From Micromonospora inyonensis (GTDB lineage Bacteria > Actinomycetota > Actinomycetes > Mycobacteriales > Micromonosporaceae): DNA of 64,000 bases. Below the pieces are notes generated by a model. It worked only from the letters and a program-made list of their open reading frames with translations. It searched no databases and had not been told where the DNA came from. Numbering within the stretch: the stretch's first letter is position 1; every line of letters begins with the position of its first letter. Below, piece by piece: positions 28,415-63,100 of the stretch. The translations under genes were made by a program, and so were the position numbers. The stretch covers positions 1,488,001 to 1,552,000 of the forward strand of contig NZ_FMHU01000002.1 in the NCBI RefSeq assembly GCF_900091415.1. Reading direction: 5' to 3'.

Positions 28415-28499
28415 CCGGGCCGCCCCGTGACCTCAATTGCGCTGGCCGGGCCGGACACGACACCGACTCGAGGTCGCGCCAAAACGCCGACACCTCGGC

Positions 28500-28720
28500 G
28501 GAGGACCCCCACGTGCGTGGGGAGGACACCGACGACGCGGACTGGCCGAACAGCGCCGGCGGAGCACCCCCACCCTCGCTTTCTGTGCGGACGTTCTCAG
28601 CGACGGCGGAGCACCCCCACGTGCGTGGGGAGGACACCACCGCCGCCACCGGCGGATCCAAGGTCCGCGGAGCACCCCCACGTGCGTGGGGAGGACGCCT
28701 CGGTGTGCTGCGGGGACGAC
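28500..28720 (-). repeat. Second repeat family at the trailer end of the array
   Basis: Repeats at 28500, 28608 and 28669 share CACGTGCGTGGGGAGGAC instead of the canonical ending; the last two are identical to each other. The one at 28561 keeps only its left half. A broken unit ends at 28720, directly before the 33-nt spacer that precedes the first canonical repeat. The stem is preserved by a paired change (CCCCAC/GTGGGG for CCCCGC/GCGGGG). Two unit lengths are shortened (47 and 24 nt instead of 61), showing deletions. Confidence 0.8.
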
Positions 28721-35654: not shown

Positions 35655-38450
35655 ATGTCGGTGGTGGCTTTTACAGTCGCCGCCATGTCGTCGGACCATG
35701 CCCGTGCACTTGCCGCGTTGTGGGGGAAGTCGAATGCTGGCGGGTATCCCAACCTGCTGCTGCAGCATCTCCTGGATACCGCCGCGGTTGGAGAGTTGAT
35801 CTGGGACAGCTATCTCGCTGACCGTGTCAAGTGGTGGCTCGACGAGCTTTCCGGTGGTAATGGTCGTCGATTCTTTGCTCTTCTTTGTGGCTGGCATGAC
35901 GTGGGGAAGGCTTCCCCGGCGTTCCAGAACAAGGTCGATCATCTGGCGCAAGGAGTGCGGGCCGCCGGTCTGACGTGGCGTCACCTGAATGCGCAGTCGA
36001 TGAGGTGGCATCACACGCGGGCGGGAGCGGTGATCATTTCATCGGTTCTGCAGGAGGCGGGGTGGCGCCGGGAGGCTGTCGAGTGGGTTTGGCCGATGGT
36101 GGCTGGCCATCACGGCTTGGTTCCTTCGCGTCGCGACGTGTTCACGGCGGCTGGCAGGTTCCCTGATGCACAAGGTGGCGGTGCCGCCTGGCAGGAGACG
36201 CAGGCCGCGCTGGTGCGTGCTGTCGCTGATCACCTCGGTGTCGATCTGGCGGGTGCGGCTCCAGTCAAGACTCCACGCCGGGGCGAGCAGCTCGGCCTAG
36301 CCGGTTTCATAATCATGGCGGACTGGATCGCCAGCAGCGATCACTTCGGTGGTGTCTTCCACCTGCCCGACGTCACTATGGCCGAGGCACGTAAACGGGC
36401 GGCTAATGCCTGGGCGACGCTGGAGCTGCGTGGCGGGTGGGGTGGGGGTGCGTACCGTCAGGTGCCGGATCTGGTGGCGGCGCGGTTTGGCAAGGGAGCC
36501 CGTCCGTTGCAGGCCGCGTGCGTCGCGTTGGCCGAGCAGATGGCTGCACCGGGGCTGCTGATCATCGAGGCGCCGATGGGGGAGGGGAAAACCGAGGGGG
36601 CGTTGGCCGCCAGCGAGGTTCTGGGCCGGCGGTTCGGCTTCGACGGAATCTTTGTGGGCATGCCCACGCAGGCGACCAGCGACCCCATGTTCGACCGGGT
36701 GCTGCAGTGGGCCGGCAAGGTCGATCCGCATCTACCGGTGGGCCTGCTGCACGGCAAGCGCATGTTCAACCCTCAGTGGAACGCCCTCCAGCGCAGCATC
36801 CACTTCGCCGGTATCGACGACATGGGGTGCGAGGACGAGTTCGACCTCACAGGGCCAAGCCAAACGATCCGTCCCGCGCATGCCCCAGCGCAATGGTTCC
36901 TTGGGGCGAAACGGGGCATGTTCATGCCGATCACCGTCGGGACCATCGACCACCTGCTGTACGCGGCGACCCGCACCAAGCATGTGATGCTCCGGCATGC
37001 CGGCCTGGCCGGCCGAGTGGTGGTCCTGGACGAGATCCACGCCTACGACGTCTACATGTCGCAGTTCCTGCACGAGGCGCTGCGTTGGCTGGCGGATGCG
37101 GGGGTGCCGGTGATCCTGCTGTCAGCGACCCTGCCGCCGCAGCAGCGTCAGAGCCTGATGCGCGCCTACCTGCAGGGGGTGCAGGGCCGCCGTGACGTCG
37201 AGCTGCCAGCCCTCGATGAGACCGATGGCTATCCGGCCCTGCACGCGCTGACCGTCTCCGGTGACACCGTCACCTGCACGACCCGGACAGCAGCCCCGTG
37301 GCGGGAGGCGAGTCGGGTGGCCGTGGAGATCGTGCAGGAGGCCTCCGCTGGCAGCCCAGACCCGGTTGTGGGTCTTCTCGACGGCGAGCTGCGTGACGGT
37401 GGCTGCGCCTTGGTCATCCGCAACACGGTCGGCCGCGCCCAGCGCACCTACCAGGCTCTGATGGACCGTTGGGGCGACGACACCCTGATTCTTCTGCACG
37501 CACGGTTGACGACCGCTGCGCGCGCCGAGCGTACGCAGAAGGCGCTGGAGCTGCTCGGGCCGCCCGGCGGTGAGATCTCGCGCCCGCACCGGCTGATCGT
37601 GGTGGCCACACAGCTCGCCGAGCAATCCTTCGACGTTGATGTGGATGTGCTTGTCACCGATCTTGCCCCGATCGACCTTGTGCTGCAGCGGGTCGGCCGT
37701 GTGCACCGGCATGTCCGTCCGGGGCGCACGCGTCTGCCGAAGGTGTATGTCACTGGCATACGGACCGCGCAGGACGGACCACCGTCGTTCCCGCCTGGCA
37801 GCGAGGCCGTGTATCGGCGTTACCCTCTGCTTCGAGCCGCCGCGTTGGTCACCGAAGCCGTAGGCGCCGGCGGATGGAGCATCCCCGCCGACGTGCCCGA
37901 CTTGGTCCGCCGAGGCTACGACACCACCACCCACGCCGTTCCAGAGACGTGGTTGCTGGCAACCGAGGCCGCGCACGAGGCGTGGCGAACCGAGCAGCAG
38001 GCCCGGCGGCACGCGGGGGAACAGTTCCTGCTCGCCGGTGAGAGCAACCTCGGCGCCCCGACCCTGGCCGGGCTGCACGACCGTCCCTCGGGTGAGGCAC
38101 CCAGCGACGACGAACTGGCAGCGGTCGTGCGGGACGGCCCTGAGACCGTCGAGGCTGTCCTTGTCCGCAGGATCGGCGACTGCTACTACACGCTCGACGG
38201 GCGTCGCCTCGGCCCTAACGGTGACGTCAGCGGCAGTGGAATCGCCGAGGAGGTGATCGGGGCGATCGTACGTCTGCCCGCCCGCGTCACCGAAGCCGCG
38301 AAGGCACTCGAGCCCCTTCCCGGCTGGTACGGCAACCCCTGGCTCCACAAGGCCCGAGCCCTCTGCGTCGACGACTGCAACTCAGTCGTCCTCGGTGACC
38401 GGCGACTCACCTACGACCACCAGCTCGGACTGCTGGAAAACAAGGCATGA
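35655..38450 (+). CDS. cas3: Cas3 nuclease-helicase
   Basis: A 931-residue type I-E Cas3. The HD nuclease comes first: GWHDVGKASPAFQ with H81 and D82, HHTRAGA, and GHHG. The SF2 helicase follows: Walker A APMGEGKTE with K312, DEIH Walker B near 459, SATLP motif III, and QRVGRVHRH motif VI. A C-terminal domain completes it. It is recruited by Cascade and degrades the displaced target strand. The ATG at 35655 has GTGAGG just upstream; the open frame itself continues leftward through the repeats but that part is not coding. A second ATG at 35685 is possible. A 320-nt gap separates it from cse1, unlike the tight packing of the other cas genes. Confidence 0.97.
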   Translation: MSVVAFTVAAMSSDHARALAALWGKSNAGGYPNLLLQHLLDTAAVGELIWDSYLADRVKWWLDELSGGNGRRFFALLCGWHDVGKASPAFQNKVDHLAQGVRAAGLTWRHLNAQSMRWHHTRAGAVIISSVLQEAGWRREAVEWVWPMVAGHHGLVPSRRDVFTAAGRFPDAQGGGAAWQETQAALVRAVADHLGVDLAGAAPVKTPRRGEQLGLAGFIIMADWIASSDHFGGVFHLPDVTMAEARKRAANAWATLELRGGWGGGAYRQVPDLVAARFGKGARPLQAACVALAEQMAAPGLLIIEAPMGEGKTEGALAASEVLGRRFGFDGIFVGMPTQATSDPMFDRVLQWAGKVDPHLPVGLLHGKRMFNPQWNALQRSIHFAGIDDMGCEDEFDLTGPSQTIRPAHAPAQWFLGAKRGMFMPITVGTIDHLLYAATRTKHVMLRHAGLAGRVVVLDEIHAYDVYMSQFLHEALRWLADAGVPVILLSATLPPQQRQSLMRAYLQGVQGRRDVELPALDETDGYPALHALTVSGDTVTCTTRTAAPWREASRVAVEIVQEASAGSPDPVVGLLDGELRDGGCALVIRNTVGRAQRTYQALMDRWGDDTLILLHARLTTAARAERTQKALELLGPPGGEISRPHRLIVVATQLAEQSFDVDVDVLVTDLAPIDLVLQRVGRVHRHVRPGRTRLPKVYVTGIRTAQDGPPSFPPGSEAVYRRYPLLRAAALVTEAVGAGGWSIPADVPDLVRRGYDTTTHAVPETWLLATEAAHEAWRTEQQARRHAGEQFLLAGESNLGAPTLAGLHDRPSGEAPSDDELAAVVRDGPETVEAVLVRRIGDCYYTLDGRRLGPNGDVSGSGIAEEVIGAIVRLPARVTEAAKALEPLPGWYGNPWLHKARALCVDDCNSVVLGDRRLTYDHQLGLLENKA

Positions 38451-38461
38451 CGATCATGGCA

Positions 38462-38549
38462 AGTAACCCCGCGTTGGCGGGGACACCCTCGGGCTTCGCG
38501 CAGTACCAGCCACATCAGCGGACCACTCCGGCGTTGGCCAGACGTGCAC
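38462..38549 (+). repeat. Mini-CRISPR-like repeat-spacer-repeat between cas3 and cse1
   Basis: The first hairpin (38467-38482) is CCCCGC-GTTG-GCGGGG, with exactly the stem and 4-nt loop geometry of the array repeats in crRNA polarity. A second hairpin (38527-38542), TCCGGC-GTTG-GCCAGA, has the same GTTG loop, five of six pairs, and lies 60 nt downstream, close to the 61-nt array period. The flanks differ from the array repeats, so these are degenerate. A 32-nt spacer-like stretch lies between them. It is on the cas-coding strand, opposite to the main array. It could be a CreA- or CreR-type guide. The structure is seen; the function is inferred. Confidence 0.55.
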
Positions 38550-38771
38550 ACCCTATCGATGATCAAGCCACGGTCTCAAAACACGCCAGCACCCGCTAGC
38601 CATATCAGCTTGGCTGTCCACTGTAGAGTCACGAAGCATGCGGGGTTCCCGCCAGCGGCTTCTCTGCCGAGAAAGTCGTGGGCGAGGTCGTGCTCCGTCG
38701 CAAGGTCCTCGCCATGCCGGTCAGCGTGATCCCGAGCGACCGGTGGTTGTCATAAGACATGTGGGGTGCTG

Positions 38772-40388
38772 ATGGAGAGACACTCGTTCAATCTGCTGGA
38801 CCAGGAGTGGGTGCCGGTCGTGGAGGGCGGCCAGCCGAGGTGCTTGTCGCTCATGGATGTGTTGGTCCGAGCGCATGAGATCGACGGACTGAGTACTGCC
38901 AACCCGTTGGAAACCGTGGCGGTACTGCGGCAGGTACTGCTGCCGATTTACCTGGATGCGTGCGGCATTCCCAACAGCGAAGCCGAGTGGGAACACCGGC
39001 GGGCGGTCGGCCAGGTCGACGTTGGTCTGCTCAAGCCGTATCTGGACGAGCATCGGGTGCGGTTTGACCTGTTCGGCGACCGGCCGTTCGGCCAGGCAGC
39101 GGGACTGCGGACGGCGAAGGACGAGGACAAGCCCATCTCCTTGTTGGTCGCGGCGACGGCGACCGGTAACAACGTGCCGCTGTTCACGTCTCGGAACGAG
39201 GCGAACCCGCCGTCGATGACACCGGCCGAAGCGGTGAGGGCGATGCTGGCCGCGCAGTGTTGGGACACGGCCGCCATCAAGTCGGGCGCCGCTGACGATC
39301 CGCAGGTGAAGGGCGGCAAGACCACCGGGAACCCTACCGGTCCATGTGGCGCGCTGGGCGTTGTCGTGCCGATCGGCCGGAACCTGTTCGAGACCTTGTT
39401 GTTGAACAGCCCGATCGTGCGGCAGCCGCCGCGCGAGGACCGCCCGCAGTGGCGGCGTGAGCTGGCGATGACCGGGGTCTGGGAGACGCGGTCCGCATTG
39501 GGGTTGTTGGATCTGCTGACCTGGCAGTCTCGCCGGATACGTCTCATCCCCGAGAACGACGCCGGTGGGGCGACCGTGGTGCGGCGAGTGGTGCTCACCG
39601 CCGGTGACCGCCTGCAGCTCATACCGAGGGATGTGGAGCCGCACACCGCTTGGCGCAGGGTCGATAAGCCACGCGCCGGCCAGGCATCGCATATGCCGAT
39701 GCGGCATGCCCCGGGTCGGGATGCGTGGCGAGGGCTCACCCCGATGCTGGCCACCGTGCCGGGCACCGACCTCGCCTACAGCAGCAGCATCCTACTCACC
39801 CAGCTCGGTGACGTCGAGGTCAGTGACCTGCCGCTGCAGGTGTTGACGGTGGGCGTCGCATACGGCAACCAGTCGGCGGTGGTGGAGGACATCCTCGCGG
39901 ACATGATCCCGCTGCCGCTGGCCGCGTTCGCGGCCGGTGAGGTGCGGCGCCTGGTTGAGGCGGTGGTCGAGCAGGCTGAGGAATTACGGAGGGCTGGTAA
40001 CCGGCTCGATGACGACCTGCGGCGGGCCGCCGGTGGTGATCCGGTGCCCTGGGACAGGGGACTGCGGCCCGGGGACGCGTTGATGCATGAACTCAACCGG
40101 GTGGTGCGGCGCTTGCTGGCGGGTCTGCAGCGCGAACCGGAGCGGTGCGAGGAAGCGGAGGACGCGTGGCGGCGGTCAGCTTACGGACTGGCGCTCAAGG
40201 CCGCGGAGCCCGCGTTGGCGGCCGTGCCGCCGACGGCGTTCCTCGGCCGTGAGGAGGACGACAAGCAGGCCAAGAAACAGAAGAAGACGTATCGGGCGAG
40301 CCTCGCCGAGGCGTGGTACGAGGGAGCGGTCCGCAAAATCCTCGGTGTCGAGCCCGCTCATGTCAGCGAATGGAAGGCGCAGGGATGA
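38772..40388 (+). CDS. casA: Cse1 / CasA (Cas8e), large Cascade subunit
   Basis: A 538-residue type I-E large subunit, recognised by its opening ERHSFNLLDQEWVPVVEGG and the DLFGDRPFGQ motif (about 96-105), then the glycine-rich GNPTGPCGALGV loop and a helical C-terminal four-helix bundle. It recognises the PAM and recruits Cas3. GGGG at 38763-38766 precedes the chosen ATG by 5 nt; a GTG two codons earlier is also in frame. Its stop overlaps cse2 (ATGA). Confidence 0.95.
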   Translation: MERHSFNLLDQEWVPVVEGGQPRCLSLMDVLVRAHEIDGLSTANPLETVAVLRQVLLPIYLDACGIPNSEAEWEHRRAVGQVDVGLLKPYLDEHRVRFDLFGDRPFGQAAGLRTAKDEDKPISLLVAATATGNNVPLFTSRNEANPPSMTPAEAVRAMLAAQCWDTAAIKSGAADDPQVKGGKTTGNPTGPCGALGVVVPIGRNLFETLLLNSPIVRQPPREDRPQWRRELAMTGVWETRSALGLLDLLTWQSRRIRLIPENDAGGATVVRRVVLTAGDRLQLIPRDVEPHTAWRRVDKPRAGQASHMPMRHAPGRDAWRGLTPMLATVPGTDLAYSSSILLTQLGDVEVSDLPLQVLTVGVAYGNQSAVVEDILADMIPLPLAAFAAGEVRRLVEAVVEQAEELRRAGNRLDDDLRRAAGGDPVPWDRGLRPGDALMHELNRVVRRLLAGLQREPERCEEAEDAWRRSAYGLALKAAEPALAAVPPTAFLGREEDDKQAKKQKKTYRASLAEAWYEGAVRKILGVEPAHVSEWKAQG

Positions 40389-40969
40389 CCAGCACCGACG
40401 ATCAGGGCCAGCGGAAGGGAAACCGCCCGTTCTTCTGGGAGAAGGACTATGCGAAGAGTCCACCCGAGGGCGCGGACCTTGCCGCGCTGCGCCGCGGGTG
40501 GGGACGACCGGCCGGTGCGGTACCGGCGATGTGGCCGCACTACACGCGACTGCGCGCCGACGGCTGGGCGAGCCCGCAGCTACACGCCGAGCACGCCGCG
40601 CTGGTGCTGTTCGCTCTGCATCAGCAGTCCCAGTCAAGACTGGTGCACCAGCCAAACGTCGGACTGGGCCTGGCGGTGGCGAAGCTACGTGACTGCGGAA
40701 AGTTCAGCGCCGACGCGGTCACTGGCCGGTTCGGCGCGGCAGCGACGGCAACCAGCTTCACCGAGGTCGTCGCTCATCTGCGGGGCCTGGTGACCCAACT
40801 GCGTGCCCTCGCCCCGACACAGCCGCTGGACTACACCCAGCTCTTCTGGGATCTGTGCAGGTGGCAGGACCCGGAAAACGTGCACGAAATCCGGCGACGG
40901 TGGGGCTCCCAGTACTTCACCCACCGCGAGAAGACGGAGAACGTCACTGACGCAGGCGCCGCCGCCTGA
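40385..40969 (+). CDS. casB: Cse2 / CasB, small Cascade subunit
   Basis: A 194-residue all-helical protein matching Cse2: FFWEKDYAKSPPEGADLAALRR near the start, then HALVL-type helices with LHQQSQSRLV, and the C-terminal DYTQLFWDLCRWQDPENVH that ends the family. It sits in Cascade as a dimer along the crRNA backbone. The start overlaps the casA stop by four bases. About 60 nt separate it from cas7. Confidence 0.93.
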   Translation: MTSTDDQGQRKGNRPFFWEKDYAKSPPEGADLAALRRGWGRPAGAVPAMWPHYTRLRADGWASPQLHAEHAALVLFALHQQSQSRLVHQPNVGLGLAVAKLRDCGKFSADAVTGRFGAAATATSFTEVVAHLRGLVTQLRALAPTQPLDYTQLFWDLCRWQDPENVHEIRRRWGSQYFTHREKTENVTDAGAAA

Positions 40970-41028
40970 GACGACACCCTGCACAGAGCTTTACACCAAC
41001 AAGCCACCAGCACACCTTGGGAGAACCG

Positions 41029-42189
41029 GTGACCGAAGCGCGCACCTACATCGACATCCACATCCTGCAGACCGTGCCACCGTCGAACCTCAACCGAGAC
41101 GACGCCGGCAGCCCGAAACAAGCCATCTACGGCGGTGCCCGCCGGGCCCGTGTCTCCTCCCAGGCATGGAAACGCGCCACCCGCAAGTCCTTCACCGAAG
41201 ACCTCGACTACTCGCCCAGCCAGTTGGGAACCCGCACGAAGCGGGTGTCGACGCTACTGGCCGAACGACTGGCCGCCCGGACGAACCTCGACGACGAGGC
41301 CGCGACCCGGCTGAGCAACGCACTGCTCGCACACGACTTGGACATCAAGCCCGGCAAGAAGCCCACCGAAACCGCCTACCTACTGTTCGTCGGCCGGAAC
41401 CAACTCGAAGCGATCGTCGACCTGGTCGCCGACCGGGCCGCCGAGCTGACCGCGCTGCCCGACGACGCACTCGCCAAGGCCGTCGCCGACCTACCGGTGC
41501 GCGCGCAGCTGACCGTCAAGCACCCGATCGACGTCGCTCTGTTCGGCCGGATGGTCGCCGACATCCCCACCCTCAACGTTGACGCGGCCACCCAGGTCGC
41601 GCACGCCCTGTCGGTGCACCCCGTGGAGATCGAGTTCGACTACTACACGGCTGTCGACGACGAGAAGAAGCCCGACGAGGACGCTGGCGCGGCGATGATC
41701 GGCACCGTCGAGTTCACCTCCGCGACCCTGTACCGGTTCGCCACCCTCGACGTGCGGCAGCTCGCCGGCAACCTCGACCAGGACCTCGAGGCGACTGTCG
41801 AGGCCGCCCAGGCATTCCTGCACGCCTTCGTCACCTCCATGCCCACCGGACACCAGAACACCTTCGCCCACCGCACGATCCCCAGCCTCGTCTCCTACGT
41901 CGTCCGGACCAACCAGCCGGTCAACCTCGTCAACGCCTTCGAGAAGCCGATCCGCAACCGCGACGGCATCGCCGCCGCTGCCACCACGCGCCTGGCCACC
42001 GAACTGGACCGCACGAGCACCGCCTGGGGGCTCACCCCCCTCGCGGTAGCCAGCGTGTACGACCCAACCCTGGCCGATGCCTCCACCATCGCGCGGGTCT
42101 TCGGCGAATCGCGTAGCCTCGCCGACGCGATTGACGCGACCATCGCCACCGTGCGAACCCGGCTGACCGGAACCTCGACCACGCGATGA
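41029..42189 (+). CDS. casC: Cas7e (CasC), crRNA-backbone subunit
   Basis: A 386-residue Cas7 with the family start TYIDIHILQTVPPSNLNRDD, then KQAIYGGARRARVSSQAWKR, the RRARVSSQ motif being typical for the RAMP fold of type I-E. GTG 41029 is chosen because GGGAGA lies 5 nt upstream; a TTG at 41017 would add four residues. Six copies form the Cascade filament. Its end overlaps cas5 by four bases. Confidence 0.95.
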   Translation: MTEARTYIDIHILQTVPPSNLNRDDAGSPKQAIYGGARRARVSSQAWKRATRKSFTEDLDYSPSQLGTRTKRVSTLLAERLAARTNLDDEAATRLSNALLAHDLDIKPGKKPTETAYLLFVGRNQLEAIVDLVADRAAELTALPDDALAKAVADLPVRAQLTVKHPIDVALFGRMVADIPTLNVDAATQVAHALSVHPVEIEFDYYTAVDDEKKPDEDAGAAMIGTVEFTSATLYRFATLDVRQLAGNLDQDLEATVEAAQAFLHAFVTSMPTGHQNTFAHRTIPSLVSYVVRTNQPVNLVNAFEKPIRNRDGIAAAATTRLATELDRTSTAWGLTPLAVASVYDPTLADASTIARVFGESRSLADAIDATIATVRTRLTGTSTTR

Positions 42190-42995
42190 GCGACTCGACG
42201 TTCTGCCTGGTGCTCCGGCTGGCCGGGCCCCTGCAGTCGTGGGGCGGACGCGGCCAGCTCAACCGCCGTGACACCCTCGACGAACCCACCAAGAGCGGAA
42301 TCCTCGGCCTCCTCGCCGCCGCCCAGGGCCTGCGCCGGCAAGACTCCATCGAGAAGCTGCTCGGCCTCAACCTGGGTGTACGCACCGACCAACCCGGATC
42401 GCTGCTGCGGGACTACCACACCGTCAGCGACTACCGCGGCCGTCCGCTGCCGTCTGCCGCAGTCAACGCCAAGGGTGTGCAGAAACCGACCTCACCGCCG
42501 AAGCACACCCACGTCACCCAACGCTTCTATCTTCAGGACGCGGTCTTCGTCGCCGCCGTCAACGGCCCGACCGACCTGCTACGCACCCTGGTCGACGCCC
42601 TGCGTAGCCCGACCTTCCCGCTGGCCCTCGGCCGGCGATCCTGCCCGCCAACCCAGCCGCTGCTGCTGACCCCCGACGACACACACCGCGTCGACCGTGA
42701 CGCACTCTGGCCCGGACAGCCCCTCGAGGTGCTCCACCGCGTGCCCTGGCAAGCCAGCGACTCCCACCGCACCTCCCGCTCCCACCGCAAAACGATGCCC
42801 GCAACCGTGGACCTGCCGGTCACCGTCGACGACGAGCATGGCGACGACATCCGTGTCGACGTGCCCGCCTCGTTCGACCCACTACACCGAGGGTTCAACA
42901 CCCGTCGGGTCCGCCAAGAATGGGTGCGCCTCGCCACCGGCGAACCCGAGAACAGCCAACCTGACCATGATCCCTTCGCCCTACTCGGGTGGTAG
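42186..42995 (+). CDS. casD: Cas5e (CasD), 5'-handle binding subunit
   Basis: A 269-residue Cas5 with VLRLAGPLQSWGG at residues 8-20 and EPTKSGILGLLAAAQG (about 33-48), both hallmark elements. SFDPLHRGFNTRRV in the C-terminal part is another type I-E feature. It holds the crRNA 5' handle. The start codon overlaps the cas7 stop (ATGA). Confidence 0.95.
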   Translation: MSDSTFCLVLRLAGPLQSWGGRGQLNRRDTLDEPTKSGILGLLAAAQGLRRQDSIEKLLGLNLGVRTDQPGSLLRDYHTVSDYRGRPLPSAAVNAKGVQKPTSPPKHTHVTQRFYLQDAVFVAAVNGPTDLLRTLVDALRSPTFPLALGRRSCPPTQPLLLTPDDTHRVDRDALWPGQPLEVLHRVPWQASDSHRTSRSHRKTMPATVDLPVTVDDEHGDDIRVDVPASFDPLHRGFNTRRVRQEWVRLATGEPENSQPDHDPFALLGW

Positions 42996-43000
42996 CCACC

Positions 43001-43732
43001 ATGCCCTACCTGTCCCGTATCCACCTCAACCCGCTGCGCACCCAGGCCCAACGGATGCTGAACAACCCCCAGGTGCTCCACGCCGCCGTCCTCGGCGGCC
43101 TCAGCCGCCAACCCGTCACAGAACGCGTCCTGTGGCGGCTGGAAACCCACCAGCACCACCTCGCCGTCCTCGTCCTCACCCAGACGAAACCGTCCTGGGA
43201 ACACCTCATCGAACAGGCCGGCTGGCCCAACGCCGACGAACCCCAAGCCCTGGTCAAACCGTACGAACCGCTGCTCGACCAGATCCAGCGCGGCCGAACC
43301 TTCGCGTTCCGACTCAAGGCCAACCCCACCAGCGCCACCAAGAAATTGATCAAACCAACCACGACGCAGGCGGAACACCTCGCCGACGAACGGCCACGGG
43401 GCGTTCGGGTAGCACACACCAAACTGCCCGAACAGGTCGACTGGCTATTGGCCAAGCTTCACCGGGCAGGCTGCACCGTCCCGACCGACACCATCAACGA
43501 CAACGAGGTGCCTGCCGTCCGGGCGACCGACCGGCACCGGCTCCGTTTCCACAAGAACGGCCGCCGTGCAGACACACCCGTGACCCTGGAAGCCGTCACC
43601 TTCGACGGCCTGCTCCAAGTCGACGATCCGGCAACGACCCGATCGGCGCTGCTCGACGGCATCGGCACCGGCAAGGCCTACGGCTTCGGCCTGCTCACCC
43701 TCGCCCCACCACGCCCCCTCCAGGAGTCCTGA
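43001..43732 (+). CDS. casE: Cas6e (CasE), crRNA-processing endoribonuclease
   Basis: A 243-residue Cas6e. It begins MPYLSRIHLNPLRTQAQRML, with His27 in LHAAVLGG at the position of the general catalytic His, and ends with the glycine-rich loop GTGKAYGFGLLTLAP. It cleaves below the repeat stem and stays bound to the 3' hairpin. ATG 43001 fits the family; GTG 42989, overlapping the cas5 stop, is the alternative. It probably acts on the mini-repeat at 38462 as well, since that stem is identical. Confidence 0.95.
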   Translation: MPYLSRIHLNPLRTQAQRMLNNPQVLHAAVLGGLSRQPVTERVLWRLETHQHHLAVLVLTQTKPSWEHLIEQAGWPNADEPQALVKPYEPLLDQIQRGRTFAFRLKANPTSATKKLIKPTTTQAEHLADERPRGVRVAHTKLPEQVDWLLAKLHRAGCTVPTDTINDNEVPAVRATDRHRLRFHKNGRRADTPVTLEAVTFDGLLQVDDPATTRSALLDGIGTGKAYGFGLLTLAPPRPLQES

Positions 43733-43733
43733 C

Positions 43734-44726
43734 GTGTGGTGGCTGGCCGACCCACAAGACCTGCACCGCGTAGCTGACCGCATCTCCAGCGTCTACGTCG
43801 AACGCTGCCACATCGACCGCGACGACAACGCGGTCGTCCTGGTCAACCGCGAACGCACCGTCCGCATACCCGCCGCGATGGTCGCCACCCTCCTCGTCGG
43901 CCCCGGAGCCCGCATCACCACCGCCGCCGTACGCCTGCTCGCCGACTCCGGCACCGCCCTGTGCTGGGTCGGCGAGAAAGGCGTACGCCTCTACGCCTCC
44001 GGCATCGGCCCCAGCCGAGGATCCCAACTCCTCCTCCGCCAGGCATACCTGGTCACCCGCACCAAAGAACGCCTCGCCGTCGCCCGCCGCATGTACGGGA
44101 TGCGCTTCCCCGACGAAGACGTCAGCGCTTCCACCATGCAACAACTACGCGGACGCGAAGGCGCACGCGTCAAGAAGATCTACCGCACCCACTCGGCCCG
44201 CACCGGCGTGCCCTGGGACGGCCGACTCTACAAACCCGGCCAACCCTTCGAAACCGGCGACGACGTCAACCGACTCCTCTCCGCAGGACACAGCTGCCTC
44301 TACGGCATCTGCCACGCCGCGATCGTCGGCCTTGGCGCCAGCCCGGGACTCGGCTTCGTCCACACTGGCGGCGCCACCTCCTTCGTTCTCGACATCGCCG
44401 ACCTCTACAAGGCCGACTACACGATCCCCCTCGCCTTTGACCTCGCCGCCAAAGGCCACACCAGCGAGCGCGACGCCCGCACCGCCTTCCGCGATCGCAT
44501 CGCCGACGGCAAACTCATGACCCGCATCGTCCAGGACATCAAGGCACTCCTGCTCAGCGAGGTAACCGACGTCCCCGAGCAGGACGCCCACGAACTCTGG
44601 GACGAATCCCTCGGCTCCGTTCCCGGCGGTATCAACTGGGCCAACGACTACGCCGACGCCCTCGACGCCACCACCTTCATCGCCATCACCGGACCCGAGG
44701 TCCACGAACCCAAGGTGGACTTTTGA
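43734..44726 (+). CDS. cas1: Cas1e integrase
   Basis: A 330-residue Cas1 from GTG 43734, one base after the cas6e stop. The metal-binding residues are intact: E142 (RGREGARVK), H210 (GFVHTGG), D220 and D223 (VLDIADLYK), at nearly the same numbers as E. coli Cas1. It forms the spacer-integration complex with Cas2. The long array agrees with an active integrase. Confidence 0.97.
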   Translation: MWWLADPQDLHRVADRISSVYVERCHIDRDDNAVVLVNRERTVRIPAAMVATLLVGPGARITTAAVRLLADSGTALCWVGEKGVRLYASGIGPSRGSQLLLRQAYLVTRTKERLAVARRMYGMRFPDEDVSASTMQQLRGREGARVKKIYRTHSARTGVPWDGRLYKPGQPFETGDDVNRLLSAGHSCLYGICHAAIVGLGASPGLGFVHTGGATSFVLDIADLYKADYTIPLAFDLAAKGHTSERDARTAFRDRIADGKLMTRIVQDIKALLLSEVTDVPEQDAHELWDESLGSVPGGINWANDYADALDATTFIAITGPEVHEPKVDF

Positions 44727-45001
44727 CCGTTGTCGTCCTCATCGCCGTCGCCGAAGGCCTCCGCGGCCACCTCACCCGCTGGATGGTCGAAGTCGCCGCC
44801 GGAGTCTTCGTCGGCAACCCCAGCACCCGCATCCGCGACCGCCTCTGGGCAACACTCGCCACCCGGGTAGGAGACGGACAAGCCATCATGATCGAACCCG
44901 CCCGAAACGAACAAGGCTGGGCAGTTCGCACCGCCGGCCGGGACCGGTGGGTACCTGTTGACCTCGACGGACTCATCCTCTCCGCTCGACTCCGCCGATA
45001 G
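44723..45001 (+). CDS. cas2: Cas2e
   Basis: A 92-residue type I-E Cas2, starting MTVVVLIAVAEGLRGHLTRW, then EVAAGVFVGNPSTRIRDRLW. The start is a rare TTG overlapping the cas1 stop (TTGA), so translation is coupled. It scaffolds two Cas1 dimers. It is the last cas gene; the IS256-type element begins about 100 nt later. Confidence 0.95.
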   Translation: MTVVVLIAVAEGLRGHLTRWMVEVAAGVFVGNPSTRIRDRLWATLATRVGDGQAIMIEPARNEQGWAVRTAGRDRWVPVDLDGLILSARLRR

Positions 45002-54195: not shown

Positions 54196-57100
54196 TCAGT
54201 CCCTTGACACATGCCGCCGGGGCTGACCCGGATCGCTCACCCGGTACCGCGCCGCCACGCTGCCGTGAGCTTTCTGGACCCGCTGCAGCAGACCACGGCC
54301 GCGCAGTAATGCCGCGATGCGGAGATGCACCGTCGGCTGCTTTGCGGCTGTCGCCTTGGCGAGGTCTGGCTCGCCGGCGGTGATGGTTCCGTTGTTGTCC
54401 ATCCGGTCGATCAGGGCGTGCCACAACTGCCGCAGTTGGTCTCGCTGCGGTGTGGTGGTGGCGATGTGGTCGGCGTGTTGGTCGAACAGGGCCCGGGCCT
54501 CGTCCGGGTTGTGCACCCACCGGCTGCCCTCGGGAGGGGCGGGCAGCGGTGCTTGCCGGGGCCGGCCCGGGTCGGTCATCCCGTACCGCGCCGCCCCGCC
54601 ACGGTGTGCTTCCTGGACCCGCTGCAGCAGACCACGGTCGCGCAATACCCCGATCCGGCGACGCACCGTCTGCTGCAGTGTGGCTGTCGCCGTGGCGAGG
54701 TCTGACTCGCTGGCGGTGATGGTTCCGTTGTCGTCCATCCGGTCGATCAGGGCGTGCCACAACTGCCGCAGTTGGTCTCGCTGCGCTGTGGTGGTGGCGA
54801 TGTGGTCGGCGTGTTGGTCGAACAGGGCCCGGGCCTCGTCCGGGTCGCGCACCCACCGGCTGCCCTCGGGAGGGGCGGGCAGCGGTGCTTGCCGGGGCTG
54901 ACCCGGGTCGGTCACTTCGTACCGCGCCGCCCCGTGACCGTGTGTTTCCTGGACCCGCTGCAGCAGACCACGGTCGCGCAATACCCCGATCCGGCGATGC
55001 ACCGTCTGCTGCGGTGTGGCTGTCGCCGTGGCGAGGTCTGACTCGGTGGCGGTGATGGTTCCGTTGTTGTCCATCCGGTTGATCAGGGCGTGCCACAGCT
55101 GCCGCAGTTGGTCTCGCTGCGCTGTGGTGGTGGCGATGTGGTTGGCGTGCAGGTCGATCAGGGCCCGGGCCTCGTCCGGGTGGCGTACTTGTCGGCTGCT
55201 GGCGGTGGGTTGGTGTTGGTCGGGGTGCAGTGGGGTGGGTGTGGTGGGTGGCTCGTCGGTGGGGTGGTGAGGGCTGTCGCCGGTGTGGATGGTGCCGGCG
55301 TCGGTGTGGGGCACCGCTGGGGGTGGCGTGAGGGATGGTTGCCAGTCCATGTCCGGCCCCTGCCCGATGGCCCAGTCGCCGAGGTTCCCGCCGTCGCCGG
55401 CCTGATCGTCGATGCTGGGCTGGCCGGGGTGGGTGGAGATCGCCGCACCGTGCTCGTCGGTCACATCCATGCCGGGATCCGGCTCCGCCGGTTCTGCCCG
55501 CCCCGTCGGCCGGGACGTTGTGGTGGCGATGTGGTTGGCGTGTTGGTCGATCAGGGCCCGGGCCTCGTCCGGGTGGCGTACTTGTCGGCTGCTGGCGGTG
55601 GGTTGGTGTTGGTCGGGGTGCAGTGGGGTGGGTGTGGTGGGTGGCGCGTCGGTGGGGTGGTGGGGGGTGTCGTCGGTGTGGATGGTGCCGGCGTCGGTGT
55701 GGGGCACCGCTGGGGGTGGCGTGAGGGGTGGTTGCCAGTCCATGTCCGGCCCCTGCCCGATGGCCCAGTCGCCGAGGTTTCCGCCGTCGCCGGCCTGATC
55801 GTCGATGCTGGGCTGGCCGGGGTGGGTGGAGATCGCCGCACCGTGCTCGTCGGTCACATCCATGCCGGGATCCGGCTCCGCCGGTTCTGCCCGCCCCGTC
55901 GGCCGGGACGTTGTGGTGGCGATGTGGTTGGCGTGTTGGTCGATCAGGGCCCGGGCCTCGTCCGGGTGGCGTACTTGTCGGCTGCTGGCGGTGGGTTGGT
56001 GTTGGTCGGGGTGCAGTGGGGTGGGTGTGGTGGGTGGCGCGTCGGTGGGGTGGTGGGGGGTGTCGTCGGTGTGGATGGTGCCGGCGTCGGTGTGGGGCAC
56101 CGCTGGGGGTGGCGTGAGGGGTGGTTGCCAGTCCATGTCCGGCCCCTGCCCGATGGCCCAGTCGCCGAGGTTCCCGCCGTCGTCGGCCCAGTCGTCGAGG
56201 TTCCTGCTGCCGTCGTCGGCCTGATCGTCGATGCTGGGCTGGCCGGGGTCGGTGGAGATCGCCGCATCGTGCTCGTGGGTCACATCCATGCCGGGAACCG
56301 GCTCGGGCGTCGGCGATTGAGGTGCCGGATTCTGCGTGCCTGGTCCGGGCGGGATCGACTGAGTCCCGGGGGACTGGCTGGGCTGGTCGCCGTTGGGTTG
56401 CGGCCACGATGTCGGGCGGGGCGGGGTCTGCGGCCGGGGCGGATGCATCGGTTGCGGTTCGGGGTCGGGTTCCGTGCCCACGGCCTCAAGCAGGTAGAGC
56501 AGGTCGGCCGGGTCCATATCGAGTAAATCGGCTGGGTCCATCTCGTGGGTGGCCCAGTCGTCGAGGTTGTCGCTGCCCTCGTCGGCCTGATCGTCGATGC
56601 TGGGCTGGCCGGGGTCGGTGGAGATCGCCGCACCGTGCTCGTCGGTCACATCCATGCCGGGAACCAGCCACCCCGGTTCCGTCCACTCCATCGGCTCCGC
56701 CGGTTCTGCCCACCCTGTCGGCCAGGCCGGCGTGGTGGGGGCGTCCGGGTCGTCCCACGGCCCGGGCAGCTGTGGCAGGCTCGTGCCCGTCGGCGAGGCG
56801 GGTGCCGGCCCGGGTATCGGCGCCGTAGCTTCGTGGTCCAGCCAGGTCAGGTCTTCACTACCCTGTGGGCGGTGCGGTCCGAGGGCAGGGCCGGGCACCG
56901 GTGCTTGCCGGGGCCGGCCCGGGTCGCTCACTCCGTACCGCGCCGCCCCGCCACGGTGTGTTTCCTGGACCCGCTGCAGCAGACCACGGTCGCGCAATAC
57001 CCCGATCCGGCGATGCACCGTCTGCAGCTGTATGGCTGTCGCCGTGGCGAGGTCTGACTCGGTGGCGGTGATGGTTCCGTTGTCGTCCATCCGGTTGATC

Positions 57101-60100
57101 AGGGCGTGCCACAACTGCCGCAGTTGGTCTCGCTGCGCTGTGGTGGTGGCGATGTGGTTGGCGTGTTGGTCGAACAGGGCCCGGGCCTCGTCCGGGTTGT
57201 GCACCCACCGGCTGCCCTCGGGAGGGGCGGGCAGCGGTGCTTGCCGGGGCCGGCCCGGGTCGGTCATCCCGTACCGCGCCGCCCCGTGACCGTGTGCTTC
57301 CTGGACCAGCTGCAGCAGACCACGGTCGCGCAATACCCCGATCCGGCGATGCACCGTCCGCCGCGGTGTGGCTGTCGCCGTGGCGAGGTCTGACTCGCTG
57401 GCGGTGATGGTTCCGTTGTCGTCCATCCGGTTGATCAGGGCGTGCCACAACTGCCGCAGTTGGTCTCGCTGCGCTGTGGTGGTGGCGATGTGGTTGGCGT
57501 GTTGGTCGAACAGGGCCCGGGCCTCGTCCGGGTTGTGCACCCACCGGCTGCCCTCGGGAGGGGCGGGCAGCGGTGTTTGCCGGGGCCGGCCCGGGTCGGT
57601 CACTTCGTACCGCGCCGCCCCGCGACCGTGTGCTTCCTGGACCAGCTGCAGCAGACCACGGTCGCGCAATACCCCGATCCGGCGACGCACCGTCCGCCGC
57701 GGTGTGGCTGTCGCCGTGGCGAGGTCTGACTCGGTGGCGGTGATGGTTCCGTTGTCGTCCATCCGGTTGATCAGGGCGTGCCACAACTGCCGCAGTTGGT
57801 CTCGCTGCGCTGTGCTGGTGGCGATGTGGTTGGCGTGCAGGTCGATCAGGGCCCGGGCCTCGTCCGGGTGGCGTACTTGTCGGCTGCTGGCGGTGGGTTG
57901 GGGTTGGTCGGGGTGCAGTGGGGTGGGTGTGGTGGGTGGCGCGTCGGTGGGGTGGTGGGGGGTGTCGCCGGTGTGGATGGTGCCGGCGTCGGTGTGGGGC
58001 ACCGCTGGGGGTGGCGTGAGGGGTGGTTGCCAGTCCATGTCCGGCCCCTGCCCGATGGCCCAGTCGCCGAGGTTTCCGCCGTCGTCGGCCCAGTCGTCGA
58101 GGTTTCCGCCGCCGTCGGCCCAGTCGTCGAGGTTCCTGCTGCCGTCGTCGGCCTGATCGTCGATGCTGGGCTGGCCGGGGTGGGTGGACATCGCCGCACC
58201 GTGCTCGTCGGTCACATCCATGCCGGGATCCGGCTCCGCCGGTTCCGCCCACCCCGCCGGTTCCGCCCACCCCGCCGGTTCCGCCCACCCCGCTGGCGGG
58301 GTGGGTGCCGGATCGGGCGTCGGCGATTGAGGTGCCGGATTCTGCATGCCTGGTCCGGGCGGGATCGACTGAGTCCCGGGGGACTGGCTGGGCTGGTCGC
58401 CGTTGGGTTGCGGCCACGATGTCGGGCGGGGCGGGGTCTGCGGCCGGGGCGGATGCATCGGTTGCGGTTCGGGGTCGGGTTCCGTGCCCACGGCCTCGAG
58501 CAGGTAGAGCAGATCGGCCGGGGCCACATCGAGTAAATCGGCTGGGTCCATCTCGTGGGTGGCCCAGTCGTCGAGGTTGTCGCTGCCCTCGCCGGCCTGA
58601 TTGCTGGGCTGGCCGGGGTCGGTGGAGATCGCCGCATCGTGCTCGTGGGTCACACCCGTGCCGGGAACCGGCCACCCCGGTTCCGCCCACCCCATCGGCT
58701 CCGCCGGTTCTGCCCACCCTGTCGGCCAGGCCGGCGTGGTGGGGGCGTCCGGGTCGTCCCACGGCCCGGGTATCGGCGCCGTAGCTCCGTGGTCCAGCCA
58801 GGACAGATTTCCACCCTGTGGGCGGTGCGGTCCGAGGGCAGGGCCCGGCACCGGTGCTTGCCGGGGCCGGCCCGGGTCGGTCATCCCGTACCGCGCCGCC
58901 CCGTGACCGTGTGCTTCCTGGACCAGCTGCAGCAGACCACGGTCGCGCAATACCCCGATCCGGCGATGCACCGTCTGCAGCTGTATGGCTGTCGCCGTGG
59001 CGAGGTCTGACTCGCTGGCGGTGATGGTTCCGTTGTCGTCCATCCGGTCGATCAGGGCGTGCCACAACTGCCGCAGCTGGTCTCGCTGCGCTGTGGTGGT
59101 GGCGATGTGGTTGGCGTGCAGGTCGATCAGGGCCCGGGCCTCGTCCGGGTTGTGCACCCACCGGCTGCCCTCGGGAGGGGCGGGCAGCGGTGTTTGCTGG
59201 GGCCGGCCCGGGTCGGTCATCCCGTACCGCGCCGCCCCGTGACCGTGTGTTTCCTGGACCAGCTGCAGTAGACCACGGTCGCGCAATACCCCGATCCGGC
59301 GACGCACCGTCCGCCGCGTTGTGGCTGTCGCCGTGGCGAGGTCTGACTCGCTGGCGGTGATGGTTCCGTTGTCGTCCATCCGGTCGATCAGGGCGTGCCA
59401 CAACTGCCGCAGCTGGTCTCGCTGCGCTGTGGTGGTGGCGATGTGGTCGGCGTGCAGGTCGAACAGGGCCCGGGCCTCGTCCGGGTTGTGCACCCACCGG
59501 CTGCCCTCGGGAGGGGCGGGCAGCGGTGCTTGCCGGGGCCGGCCCGGATCGGTCATCCCGTACCGCGCCGCCCCGCCACGGTGTGTTTCCTGGACCCGCT
59601 GCAGCAGACCACGGTCGCGCAATACCCCGATCCGGCGATGCACCGTCTGCAGCTGTATGGCTGTCGCCTTGGCGAGGTCTGACTCGCTGGCGGTGATGGT
59701 TCCGTTGTTGTCCATCCGGTTGATCAGGGCGTGCCACAGCTGCCGCAGTTGGTCTCGCTGCGCTGTGGTGGTGGCGATGTGGTTGGCGTGTTGGTCGAAC
59801 AGGGCCCGGGCCTCGTCCGGGTTGTGCACCCACCGGCTGCCCTCGGGAGGGGCGGGCAGCGGTGTTTGCTGGGGCCGGCCCGGATCGGTCACTGCGTACC
59901 GCGCCGCCCCGCCACGGTGTGTTTCCTGGACCCGCTGCAGCAGACCACGGTCGCGCAATACCCCGATCCGGTCATGCACCGTCTGCTGCGGTGTGGCTGT
60001 CGCCTTGGCGAGGTCTGACTCGCTGGCGGTGATGGTTCCGTTGTCGTCCATCCGGTCGATCAGGGCGTGCCACAGCTGCCGCAGTTGGTCTCGCTGCGCT

Positions 60101-63100
60101 GTGGTGGTGGCGATGTGGTTGGCGTGTTGGTCGAACAGGGCCCGGGCCTCGTCCGGGTTGTGCACCCACCGGCTGCCCTCGGGAGGGGCGGGCAGCGGTG
60201 TTTGCTGGGGCCGGCCCGGATCGGTCACTGCGTACCGCGCCGCCCCGCCACGGTGTGTTTCCTGGACCCGCTGCAGCAGACCACGGTCGCGCAATACCCC
60301 GATCCGGCGATGCACCGTCTGCTGCGGTGTGGCTGTCGCCTTGGCGAGGTCTGACTCGCTGGCGGTGATGGTTCCGTTGTCGTCCATCCGGTCGATCAGG
60401 GCGTGCCACAGCTGCCGCAGTTGGTCTCGCTGCGCTGTGGTGGTGGCGATGTGGTTGGCGTGCAGGTCGAACAGGGCCCGGGCCTCGTCCGGGTGGCGTA
60501 CTTGTCGGCTGCTGGCGGTGGGTTGGGGTTGGTCGGGGTGCAGTGGGGTGGGTGTGGTGGGTGGCTCGTCGGTGGGGTGGTGGGGGGTGTCGTCGGTGTG
60601 GATGGTGCCGGCGTCGGTGTGGGTCACCGCTGGGGGTGGCGTGAGGGGTGGTTGCCAGTCCATGTTCGGCCCCTGCCCGATGGCCCAGTCGTCGAGGTTC
60701 CTGCTGCCGTCGTCGGCCTGATCGTCGATGCTGGGCTGGCCGAAGTCGGTGGACATCGCCGCACCGTGCTCGTCGGTCACACCCGTGCCGGGAACCAGCC
60801 ATCCCGGTTCCGCCCACTCTGCCCACCCTGTCGGCCAGGCCGGCGTGGTGGGGGCGTCCGGGTCGTCCCACGGCCCGGGCAGCTGTGGCAGGTCCGTGTC
60901 CGTCGGCGAGGCGGGTGCCGGCCCGGGTATCGGCGCCGTAGCTTCGTGGTCCAGCCAGGACAGATCTTCACTACCCTGTGGGCGGTGCGGTCCGAGGGCA
61001 GGGCCCGGCACCGGTGTTTGCTGGGGCCGGCCCGGATCGGTCATCCCGTACCGCGCCGCCCCGCCACGGTGTGTTTCCTGGACCCGCTGCAGCAGACCAC
61101 GGTCGCGCAATACCCCGATCCGGCGATGCACCGTCTGCAGCTGTATGGCTGTCGCCGTGGCGAGGTCTGACTCGGTGGCGGTGATGGTTCCGTTGTTGTC
61201 CATCCGGTTGATCAGGGCGTGCCACAGCTGCCGCAGTTGGTCTCGCTGCGCTGTGGTGGTGGCGATGTGGTTGGCGTGTTGGTCGAACAGGGCCCGGGCC
61301 TCGTCCGGGTTGTGCACCCACCGGCTGCCCTCGGGAGGGGCGGGCAGCGGTGTTTGCCGGGGCCGGCCCGGGTCGGTCATCCCGTACCGCGCCGCCCCGC
61401 GACCGTGTGTTTCCTGGACCAGCTGCAGCAGACCACGGTCGCGCAATACCCCGATCCGGCGATGCACCGTCTGCTGCAGTGTGGCTGTCGCCTTGGCGAG
61501 GTCTGACTCGCTGGCGGTGATGGTTCCGTTGTTGTCCATCCGGTTGATCAGGGCGTGCCACAGCTGCCGCAGTTGGTCTCGCTGCGCTGTGGTGGTGGCG
61601 ATGTGGTTGGCGTGTTGGTCGAACAGGGCCCGGGCCTCGTCCGGGTTGTGCACCCACCGGCTGCCCTCGGGAGGGGCGGGCAGCGGTGTTTGCTGGGGCC
61701 GGCCCGGATCGGTCACTGCGTACCGCGCCGCCCCGCCACGGTGTGTTTCCTGGACCCGCTGCAGCAGACCACGGTCGCGCAATACCCCGATCCGGCGATG
61801 CACCGTCTGCTGCGGTGTGGCTGTCGCCTTGGCGAGGTCTGACTCGCTGGCGGTGATGGTTCCGTTGTCGTCCATCCGGTCGATCAGGGCGTGCCACAGC
61901 TGCCGCAGTTGGTCTCGCTGCGCTGTGGTGGTGGCGATGTGGTTGGCGTGTTGGTCGAACAGGGCCCGGGCCTCGTCCGGGTTGTGCACCCACCGGCTGC
62001 CCTCGGGAGGGGCGGGCAGCGGTGTTTGCTGGGGCCGGCCCGGATCGGTCACTGCGTACCGCGCCGCCCCGCCACGGTGTGTTTCCTGGACCCGCTGCAG
62101 CAGACCACGGTCGCGCAATACCCCGATCCGGCGATGCACCGTCTGCAGCTGTATGGCTGTCGCCGTGGCGAGGTCTGACTCGCTGGCGGTGATGGTTCCG
62201 TTGTCGTCCATCCGGTCGATCAGGGCGTGCCACAACTGCCGCAGCTGGTCTCGCTGCGCTGTGCTGGTGGCGATGTGGTTGGCGTGCAGGTCGAACAGGG
62301 CCCGGGCCTCGTCCGGGTGGCGTACTTGTCGGCTGCTGGCGGTGGGTTGGGGTTGGTCGGGGTGCAGTGGGGTGGGTGTGGTGGGTGGCTCGTCGGTGGG
62401 GTGGTGAGGGCTGTCGCCGGTGTGGATGGTGCCGGCGTCGGTGTGGGGCACCGCTGGGGGTGGCGTGAGGGATGGTTGCCAGTCCATGTCCGGCCCCTGC
62501 CCGATGGCCCAGTCGCCGAGGATCCTGCTGCCGTCGGCCCAGTCGTCGAGGTTCCTGCTGCCGTCGTCGGCCTGATCGTCGATGCTGGGCTGGCCGAAGT
62601 CGGTGGACATCGCCGCACCGTGCTCGTCGGTCACACCCGTGCCGGGAACCAGCCATCCCGGTTCCGCCCACTCTGCCCACCCTGTCGGCCAGGCCGGCGT
62701 GGTGGGGGCGTCCGGGTCGTCCCACGGCCCGGGCAGCTGTGGCAGGTCCGTGTCCGTCGGCGAGGCGGGTGCCGGCCCGGGTATCGGCGCCGTAGCTCCG
62801 TGGTCCAGCCAGGACAGATTTCCACCCTGTGGGCGGTGCGGTCCGAGGGCAGGGCCCGGCACCGGTGCTTGCCGGGGCCGGCCCGGATCGGTCATCCCGT
62901 ACCGCGGCGCCCCGCGACCGTGTGCTTCCTGGACCCGCTGCAGCAGACCACGGTCGCGCAATACCCCGATCCGGCGATGCACCGTCTGCAGCTGTATGGC
63001 TGTCGCCTTGGCGAGGTCTGACTCGCTGGCGGTGATGGTTCCGTTGTTGTCCATCCGGTTGATCAGGGCGTGCCACAACTGCCGCAGTTGGTCTCGCTGC

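Follow-up and report, generated by a model that had tools for sequence, protein, structure and literature searches.

The gap between cas3 and cse1 in a type I-E CRISPR locus of Micromonospora inyonensis contains two repeat-like units on either side of a single spacer-like sequence, and the guide read from the minus strand matches a PAM-adjacent site upstream of cse1. The reading that best fits the window (i.e., the whole stretch of 64,000 nt that was analyzed) is CreR-type autorepression of the Cascade operon, which, judged from sequence data, we consider quite probable. The initial annotation had proposed a Cas-regulating mini-array, similar to CreR or CreA, at this place, and the proposal is now strongly supported by conservation and by the agreement of spacer and target across species. 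The two units, the handle, the seed, the PAM, the strand, the agreement between species and the genome-unique site can all be read off directly. The locus consists of cas3, cse1, cse2, cas7, cas5, cas6e, cas1 and cas2, as recognized by family matches, and the possible starts of cse1 are GTG at 38766 and ATG at 38772. The coordinates are summarized in Table 1.

Table 1. Features of the cas3–cse1 gap and its surroundings (positions in the window).
Feature	Position	Strand	Remarks
cas3 stop	38448-38450	+	5' border of the gap
cas3–cse1 gap	38451-38765		between cas3 and cse1; family matches
Unit 1, downstream ectopic repeat (psi-R2)	38460..38487	-	putative source of the 3' Cas6e hairpin of the guide; stem identical to that of the array repeat
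Spacer-like sequence, 32 nt	38488..38519	-	guide position 1 = 38518, leftwards: CTGATGTGGCTGG...
Unit 2, upstream ectopic repeat (psi-R1)	38520..38542	-	degenerate stem 38527-38542 and 7-nt handle 38520-38526
Possible mini-CRISPR promoter	38550..38579	-	TTGAGA 38574-38579, 18 nt, TAGGGT 38550-38555; ends 7 nt before the unit 2 stem
Target seed CTGATaTGGCT (guide CTGATgTGGCT)	38598..38608	-	match at 1-5 and 7-11, mismatch at 6
Target PAM AAG	38609..38611	-
-10-like TAGAGT, presumed repressed promoter	38624..38629	+	by eye; the -35 region would fall within the target
44-aa ORF	38638..38772	+	8 nt after TAGAGT; stop overlaps possible cse1 ATG 38772; such a size can be due to chance
cse1 (casA), first Cascade operon gene, presumed regulated	38766..40388	+	TIGR02547, E 1e-39
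cse2, cas7, cas5, cas6e, cas1, cas2	40313..45001	+	same operon as cse1; family matches

Two hairpins with GTTG loops on the plus strand, with 60 nt between their stem starts, had been reported in the gap, and we found both. In plus-strand letters, the stem of hairpin 1 (38467-38482) is CCCCGC/GCGGGG and that of hairpin 2 is TCCGGC/GCCAGA. The stem of the first was said to equal that of the main array repeat, and this also holds: CCCCGCNNNNGCGGGG occurs 108 times in the window, with 107 copies in the array and a single copy in the gap, where 0.10 were expected. The unit 1 stem is the same as the array repeat stem at 12/12 positions, and the handle of unit 2 (GTGGTCC) agrees with the array handle (GTCTTCC) at 5/7. 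In an RNA fold prediction for 93 nt of the window, unit 2 paired with the spacer (z -0.71) and its hairpin was absent from the minimum-energy state, which counts against efficient processing. An Rfam search gave one match at the level of chance (E 3.6). Other repeats also occur in the window. Next to the main array, at its far end, a short run of degenerate repeats of another type (CGGAGCACCCCCACGTGCGTGGGGAGGAC-like) is located at 28490-28715, long tandem arrays of 336-nt and 393-nt units occupy 54216-63497, and 126-nt tandem repeats, which we assume may encode WD40-type repeats, lie at 859-1688.

The mini-array had originally been read on the plus strand, which our analysis shows to be wrong: the element is encoded on the minus strand, in antisense orientation to cas3 and cse1. 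In the main array (28.7-35.4 kb), the repeats are regular at the right end and deviate at the left end, so its leader is most likely on the cas side and its crRNAs are most likely minus-strand. On that strand, the array repeat reads GTCGTCCCCGC ACGC GCGGGG GTCTTCC, and the mini-array resembles it in its inner parts, i.e., in the unit 2 handle and in the stem and 5' flank of unit 1. Unit 2 of Salinispora pacifica has the same handle as the species' own array (GTCTTCC); the two handles are also the same in L061, L073, L079 and L080, and they differ in other relatives. Where the unit 2 stem has a C-A mismatch in plus-strand letters, the minus strand has a U-G pair, and all six pairs can form only there. 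The homologous unit 1 stems of 35 loci contained 204 standard pairs out of 210 in plus-strand letters, with seven cells changed on both sides; the 36th locus (L073), which the script had misplaced, was left out of this count. When these stems were complemented by hand to the minus strand, 207/210 were standard, as five C-A cells and one A-C cell became U-G and three G-T/T-G cells were lost. A narrower count of 21 hand-picked units, without the imperfect L040 and L088, gave 99.2% and 5 double changes.

The seed score used below is the agreement at guide positions 1-5 and 7-11 (10 positions). With its start fixed by the handle, the guide of the window matched the full seed at a single site in the gap, the minus-strand CTGATaTGGCTaG preceded by AAG; a second mismatch falls on guide position 12, the next base after the seed. 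The next best site in the gap scored 6/10, and only 1 of 300 shuffled window guides reached 10. Across the 6.92-Mb genome, AANCTGATNTGGCT has a single site, which is this target, and the same pattern read backwards also occurs once. When guides of other species were placed on the window gap, the mean score was 6.85 and the maximum was 8 of 10; across the same gaps, the guides of other species had means of about 6.5-7.5 and maxima of 8-9 of 10. The sole terminator-like call in the gap (0.1 expected), a hairpin with a T-run at 38585-38600 on the minus strand, overlaps the target.

We compared the gap with those of related type I-E loci. Cse1 searches yielded 68 loci after duplicates (L031, L061-L063, L116) and one truncated locus (L085) were dropped; 65 of the 68 had a cas3 match and a measurable gap, and 50 of these gaps were at least 100 nt long. 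Four loci (L057, L086, L099, L107) were excluded for want of a recognized cas3. A first search of the genome contigs had returned nothing, and a second, with the Salinispora protein, returned 28 named loci. At the DNA level, comparison of the gap with those of 60 relatives gave only short pieces (E 6.6e-4 or worse). By eye, a repeat-like unit 2 was recognized in 36 loci, for which the best-site score was 10/10 in 27, 9 in five, 8 in two and 6 in two. L040, L076 and L077 lacked a convincing target, and the remaining 33 loci formed the set analyzed further. These include L036 (8/10, a score that 168/300 shuffles reached), which was kept only for the alignment of its site with that of L035; a score of 9 was reached by 29/300 shuffles in L035 and by 11/300 in L037. 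Within this set, guide and target agreed at 323/330 of positions 1-5 and 7-11, at 8/33 of position 6 and at 4/33 of position 12, and the target site was on the minus strand in 33/33 loci. The PAMs were AAG in 16 loci, AAC in seven, AAT in seven, AAA in two and GAC in one. There were 28 different seeds; they vary by species, and the targets change with them.

The spacing of the stems in the 36 mini-CRISPRs was 48-50 nt in 21 (L037-L042, L048, L050, L051, L065, L074, part of L076-L082, L087, L088, L094 and L098; L073 is probably misplaced), 60-63 nt in 14 and 43 nt in L084. The spacers of many relatives are thus shorter by about 11-12 nt, which equals two 6-nt steps. In L040, as judged by eye only, the target (CTGTC CTATC beside AAC) seems to be missing the base that would face guide position 6.

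An automatic scan for the handle pattern, a 10/10 seed and an AAN PAM found the pair in 25 of the 65 gaps, in every case on the minus strand; 2,600 shuffled gaps (40 x 65) gave none. The pattern was defined on loci that had been inspected beforehand, and the zero for the plus strand was obtained with the minus-strand handle pattern and thus says little about a plus-strand guide. A class-wide search then supplied 22 new loci as a holdout, which gave 21 gaps, 19 of them non-duplicate after removal of L117 (of L065) and L123 (of L064), and 15 of at least 100 nt. With the scan code unchanged, a 10/10 minus-strand pair was detected in 7/19 gaps, among loci that are not all independent (L110 and L065 share 78% similarity, and L111 is nearly identical to L113). 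Pairs of 9/10, sought only where 10/10 failed, were found on the minus strand in L121 and L127 and on the plus strand in L120. The comparison proposed at the outset, that of the gap across related type I-E loci, yielded a pairing of handle, seed and PAM in 25/65 gaps and in 7/19 new ones.

Of the 50 gaps that were 100 nt or longer, half (25) lacked the pair in the scan. Eleven of these 25 belong to the set recognized by eye, with a looser match or none, and L075 seems by eye to have a single-repeat form. No pair was recognized in 13 long gaps (L032, L034, L052-L056, L058, L060, L081, L083, L095 and L100), among which the search did not reach the end of cas3 in L052-L056. Short gaps, such as those of L041, L043-L047 and L049, also had no pair. 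The closest relative by Cse1, M. phytophila (L032), has unit 1 only (by eye) and gave no pair in the scan. The genome of the window itself carries a second, diverged type I-E cas3-cse1 pair (L103; G000:C1:452000-462000), in which the gap is about 20 nt and no mini-CRISPR was found.

Possible promoters were identified on both strands. The -35-like TTGAGA upstream of the mini-CRISPR was read by eye. On the minus strand, TAnnnT occurred 7-8 nt before the unit 2 stem in 6/6 loci of one group (the window, L033, L035, L036, L089 and Frankia L065), which was made by eye without a tree and whose members are related and do not represent six independent events. Among 22 loci with a short unit 2 hairpin, TAnnnT stood at 7-8 nt in seven, against a background of 0.003 per position. 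By a loose criterion, the target is followed on the plus strand of the same six loci by TAnnnT and a potential start codon. A strict promoter scan of the gap called no sigma-70 promoter, including at the TAGGGT and TAGAGT sites. The target was 20-83 nt from the cse1 match in 26 of the 33 loci, which is consistent with repression of the Cascade operon; the distance was 145 nt in L084, 157 nt in the window and 442-577 nt in five loci. Since the target in the window is farther from cse1 than in most of these loci, another transcript could be the client there.

Based on these results, we propose the following model, in which both promoters, transcription, processing, binding, repression and the purpose are inferred. 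A promoter immediately to the right of unit 2 would drive minus-strand transcription of the one-spacer mini-CRISPR, and Cas6e would cleave both degenerate repeats to release a crRNA-like RNA that carries the GTGGTCC handle and, at its 3' end, the hairpin of unit 1. Guided by this RNA, Cascade would bind 38598-38608 beside the AAG PAM through about 10 bp (positions 1-5 and 7-11, with base six flipped out), a pairing too short for cutting by Cas3. Bound there, it would cover the promoter upstream of cse1 and repress its own operon until ordinary crRNAs or anti-CRISPR proteins pull Cascade away. Work on E. coli has found that AAG together with as few as five seed pairs often suffices for Cascade to bind, that one base in every six is flipped out, and that at least 18 to 25 bp are required for robust interference (PMC5904413), so the guide of the window should bind without cutting. 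Work cited in the same source states that six PAM-distal mismatches greatly reduce repression by Cascade, and this weighs against autorepression here. Our estimate for autorepression stops at quite probable, given that the pair is missing from half of the long gaps and that the promoter is putative.

The initial annotation had named autoregulation of cse1 or a hidden toxin as the purpose of the element. Autoregulation fits the window best, because the target lies just upstream of the -10-like TAGAGT leading to cse1, and a toxin is not visible there beyond the unremarkable 44-aa ORF; some relatives, however, have small membrane-protein genes, possible toxins, behind the target. Alternatively, the RNA could act as the CreA of a CRISPR-regulated toxin-antitoxin system, repressing a toxic small gene between the target and cse1, and the cell would then depend on Cascade. 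In L033, L035, L065, L110, L111, L113, L121, L122 and L127, the target is followed by a small ORF with a hydrophobic segment, and in the window by the 44-aa ORF. S. mooreana (L034) retains unit 1 and the end of the small gene and has lost the front part of that gene along with unit 2 and the target promoter. M. peucetia (L033) and S. pacifica (L035) have an orphan gene of 126-127 codons after the target, whose proteins are alike mainly in the front part and have a hydrophobic stretch at the end. In L065 (Frankia sp. R82), L110, L111, L113, L121, L122 and L127, a different small protein is encoded behind the target, 166-212 nt before cse1, in which a single strongly hydrophobic helix (hydropathy 2.0-2.7) precedes an Arg-rich stretch; in these loci the target seems to serve the small gene and not cse1. 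Between the small genes of L127 and L121, codon positions 1, 2 and 3 show 19, 11 and 30 changes, respectively, a coding-like pattern. The window, however, has no small membrane-protein gene. Its region showed only a weak likeness to the end of the M. peucetia gene, which 3/300 shuffles equaled (5/300 in L089 and 271/300 in L035), so a remnant is not established. Furthermore, the small gene is frameshifted in L036 and L089 and the mini-CRISPR is still there. No significant family was found for the six small proteins tested (P0003, P0004 and those of L111, L121, L122 and L127) in Pfam, PADLOC and PHROGs, or in NCBIfam for P0003. P0003 had a MarR-type match below its cut-off (E 0.0078), and holin matches among the six (E 0.06 and 0.25) were too weak to be of use. 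A search with P0003 returned no match but itself. A search with P0004 returned five proteins, the one named being from Salinispora pacifica, and a search with an alignment of the small proteins, in which only the best 8000 candidates were scored, returned five proteins, three of them labeled as hypothetical, so that relatives of these proteins are few among those scored. For the window, we regard the toxin-antitoxin reading as unlikely. A doubtful, though less remote, variant is that in Frankia-type, Salinispora and Micromonospora relatives the mini-CRISPR guards a Cascade-repressed membrane toxin gene before cse1, and that the window derives from a system of this sort, its toxin gone and its guide retained as a cas autorepressor. 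If this were true, the toxin would be of a kind unlike the examples in the CreTA and CrePA literature examined, with a hydrophobic helix and an Arg-rich tail or with a winged-helix-like front and a hydrophobic end.

The remaining readings assign the gap other roles or none. That it holds a decaying, functionless remnant of a CRISPR array is suggested by the degenerate repeats of the mini-array, by the presence, by eye, of unit 1 only in L032 and by the two units without a convincing target in L040, L076 and L077. Such decay is very improbable in view of the agreement of seed and target in 33 loci with 28 different seeds, together with the PAM and the 6-nt phase, and the repeat parts that were kept are the inner ones required in a crRNA. 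The plus-strand guide aimed at 38641, as originally annotated, deserves next to no credence. The 38641 site does match at 10/12 letters and is preceded by ATG; its seed score (8/10) is at the level of chance, and we replaced it with the minus-strand site at 38598-38608 and its AAG PAM at 38609-38611. Read on the plus strand, the 36 loci scored 6-8 in 34, 9 in one and 10 in one, so a plus-strand guide scores 9 or 10 in 2/36 loci, but ATG is absent among the 33 PAMs and the handle-like and 5'-half parts that were kept are those of a minus-strand crRNA. It is equally hard to credit that the hairpin after cas3 is a mere terminator or an mRNA-stabilizing structure. It does lie closely behind the cas3 stop codon, but it has no T-run, the sole terminator-like call in the gap is elsewhere (38585-38600, minus strand), and a terminator accounts for neither unit 2 nor the pairing of seed and target.

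CreR-type autorepression remains the preferred reading, and the locus is a candidate case of an actinobacterial type I-E Cascade wired to a guide that is fit for binding and not for cutting, with guide mismatches in phase with the flipped-out bases. The analysis also offers a simple search rule for such RNAs and candidate membrane toxins under Cascade control in relatives.

The primary CreR paper is reportedly Liu et al. 2023; among the literature matches listed, no title pointed to one on an actinobacterial CreR, which is no proof of absence. CreR, the cas-regulating RNA, is known in types I-B, I-E and V-A (PMC13131331), and CreR, CreTA and CrePA have been described together (PMC12737573). 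The element resembles CreR as presented there in being a degenerate-repeat mini-CRISPR in the cas locus that has partial, PAM-adjacent complementarity to the cas promoter region and would use the cell's own Cascade (PMC12737573). Of these traits, the window has the ectopic repeat-like units either side of one spacer near cas genes and the complementarity with a PAM upstream of cse1, a site that would be a promoter. CreR is described as generally not coupled to a toxin gene; the window has only the 44-aa ORF, and some relatives have small membrane-protein genes. Unlike CreR, the element is known from sequence alone and lies antisense in the cas3-cse1 gap, its pairing is mostly confined to positions 1-5 and 7-11, and the spacers of many relatives are about 11-12 nt shorter. 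In CreA of the haloarchaeal I-B CreTA, psi-R1 keeps the Cas5-binding handle, and psi-R2 has lost its handle with the rest better kept (PMC9458426). The window follows the same pattern (unit 2 handle 5/7 and unit 1 stem 12/12 versus the array), but no toxin RNA or gene was identified behind its target. The likeness to CrePA, in which a protein toxin is under the control of CreA, is that some relatives have a protein gene behind the target (PMC12737573). CreP is typically KilA-N (PMC12737573), whereas the relatives encode small proteins that contain a hydrophobic segment and match no family significantly, and the window lacks such proteins. From its sequence, the element of the window is best filed as an unannotated new example of the CreR kind already reported.
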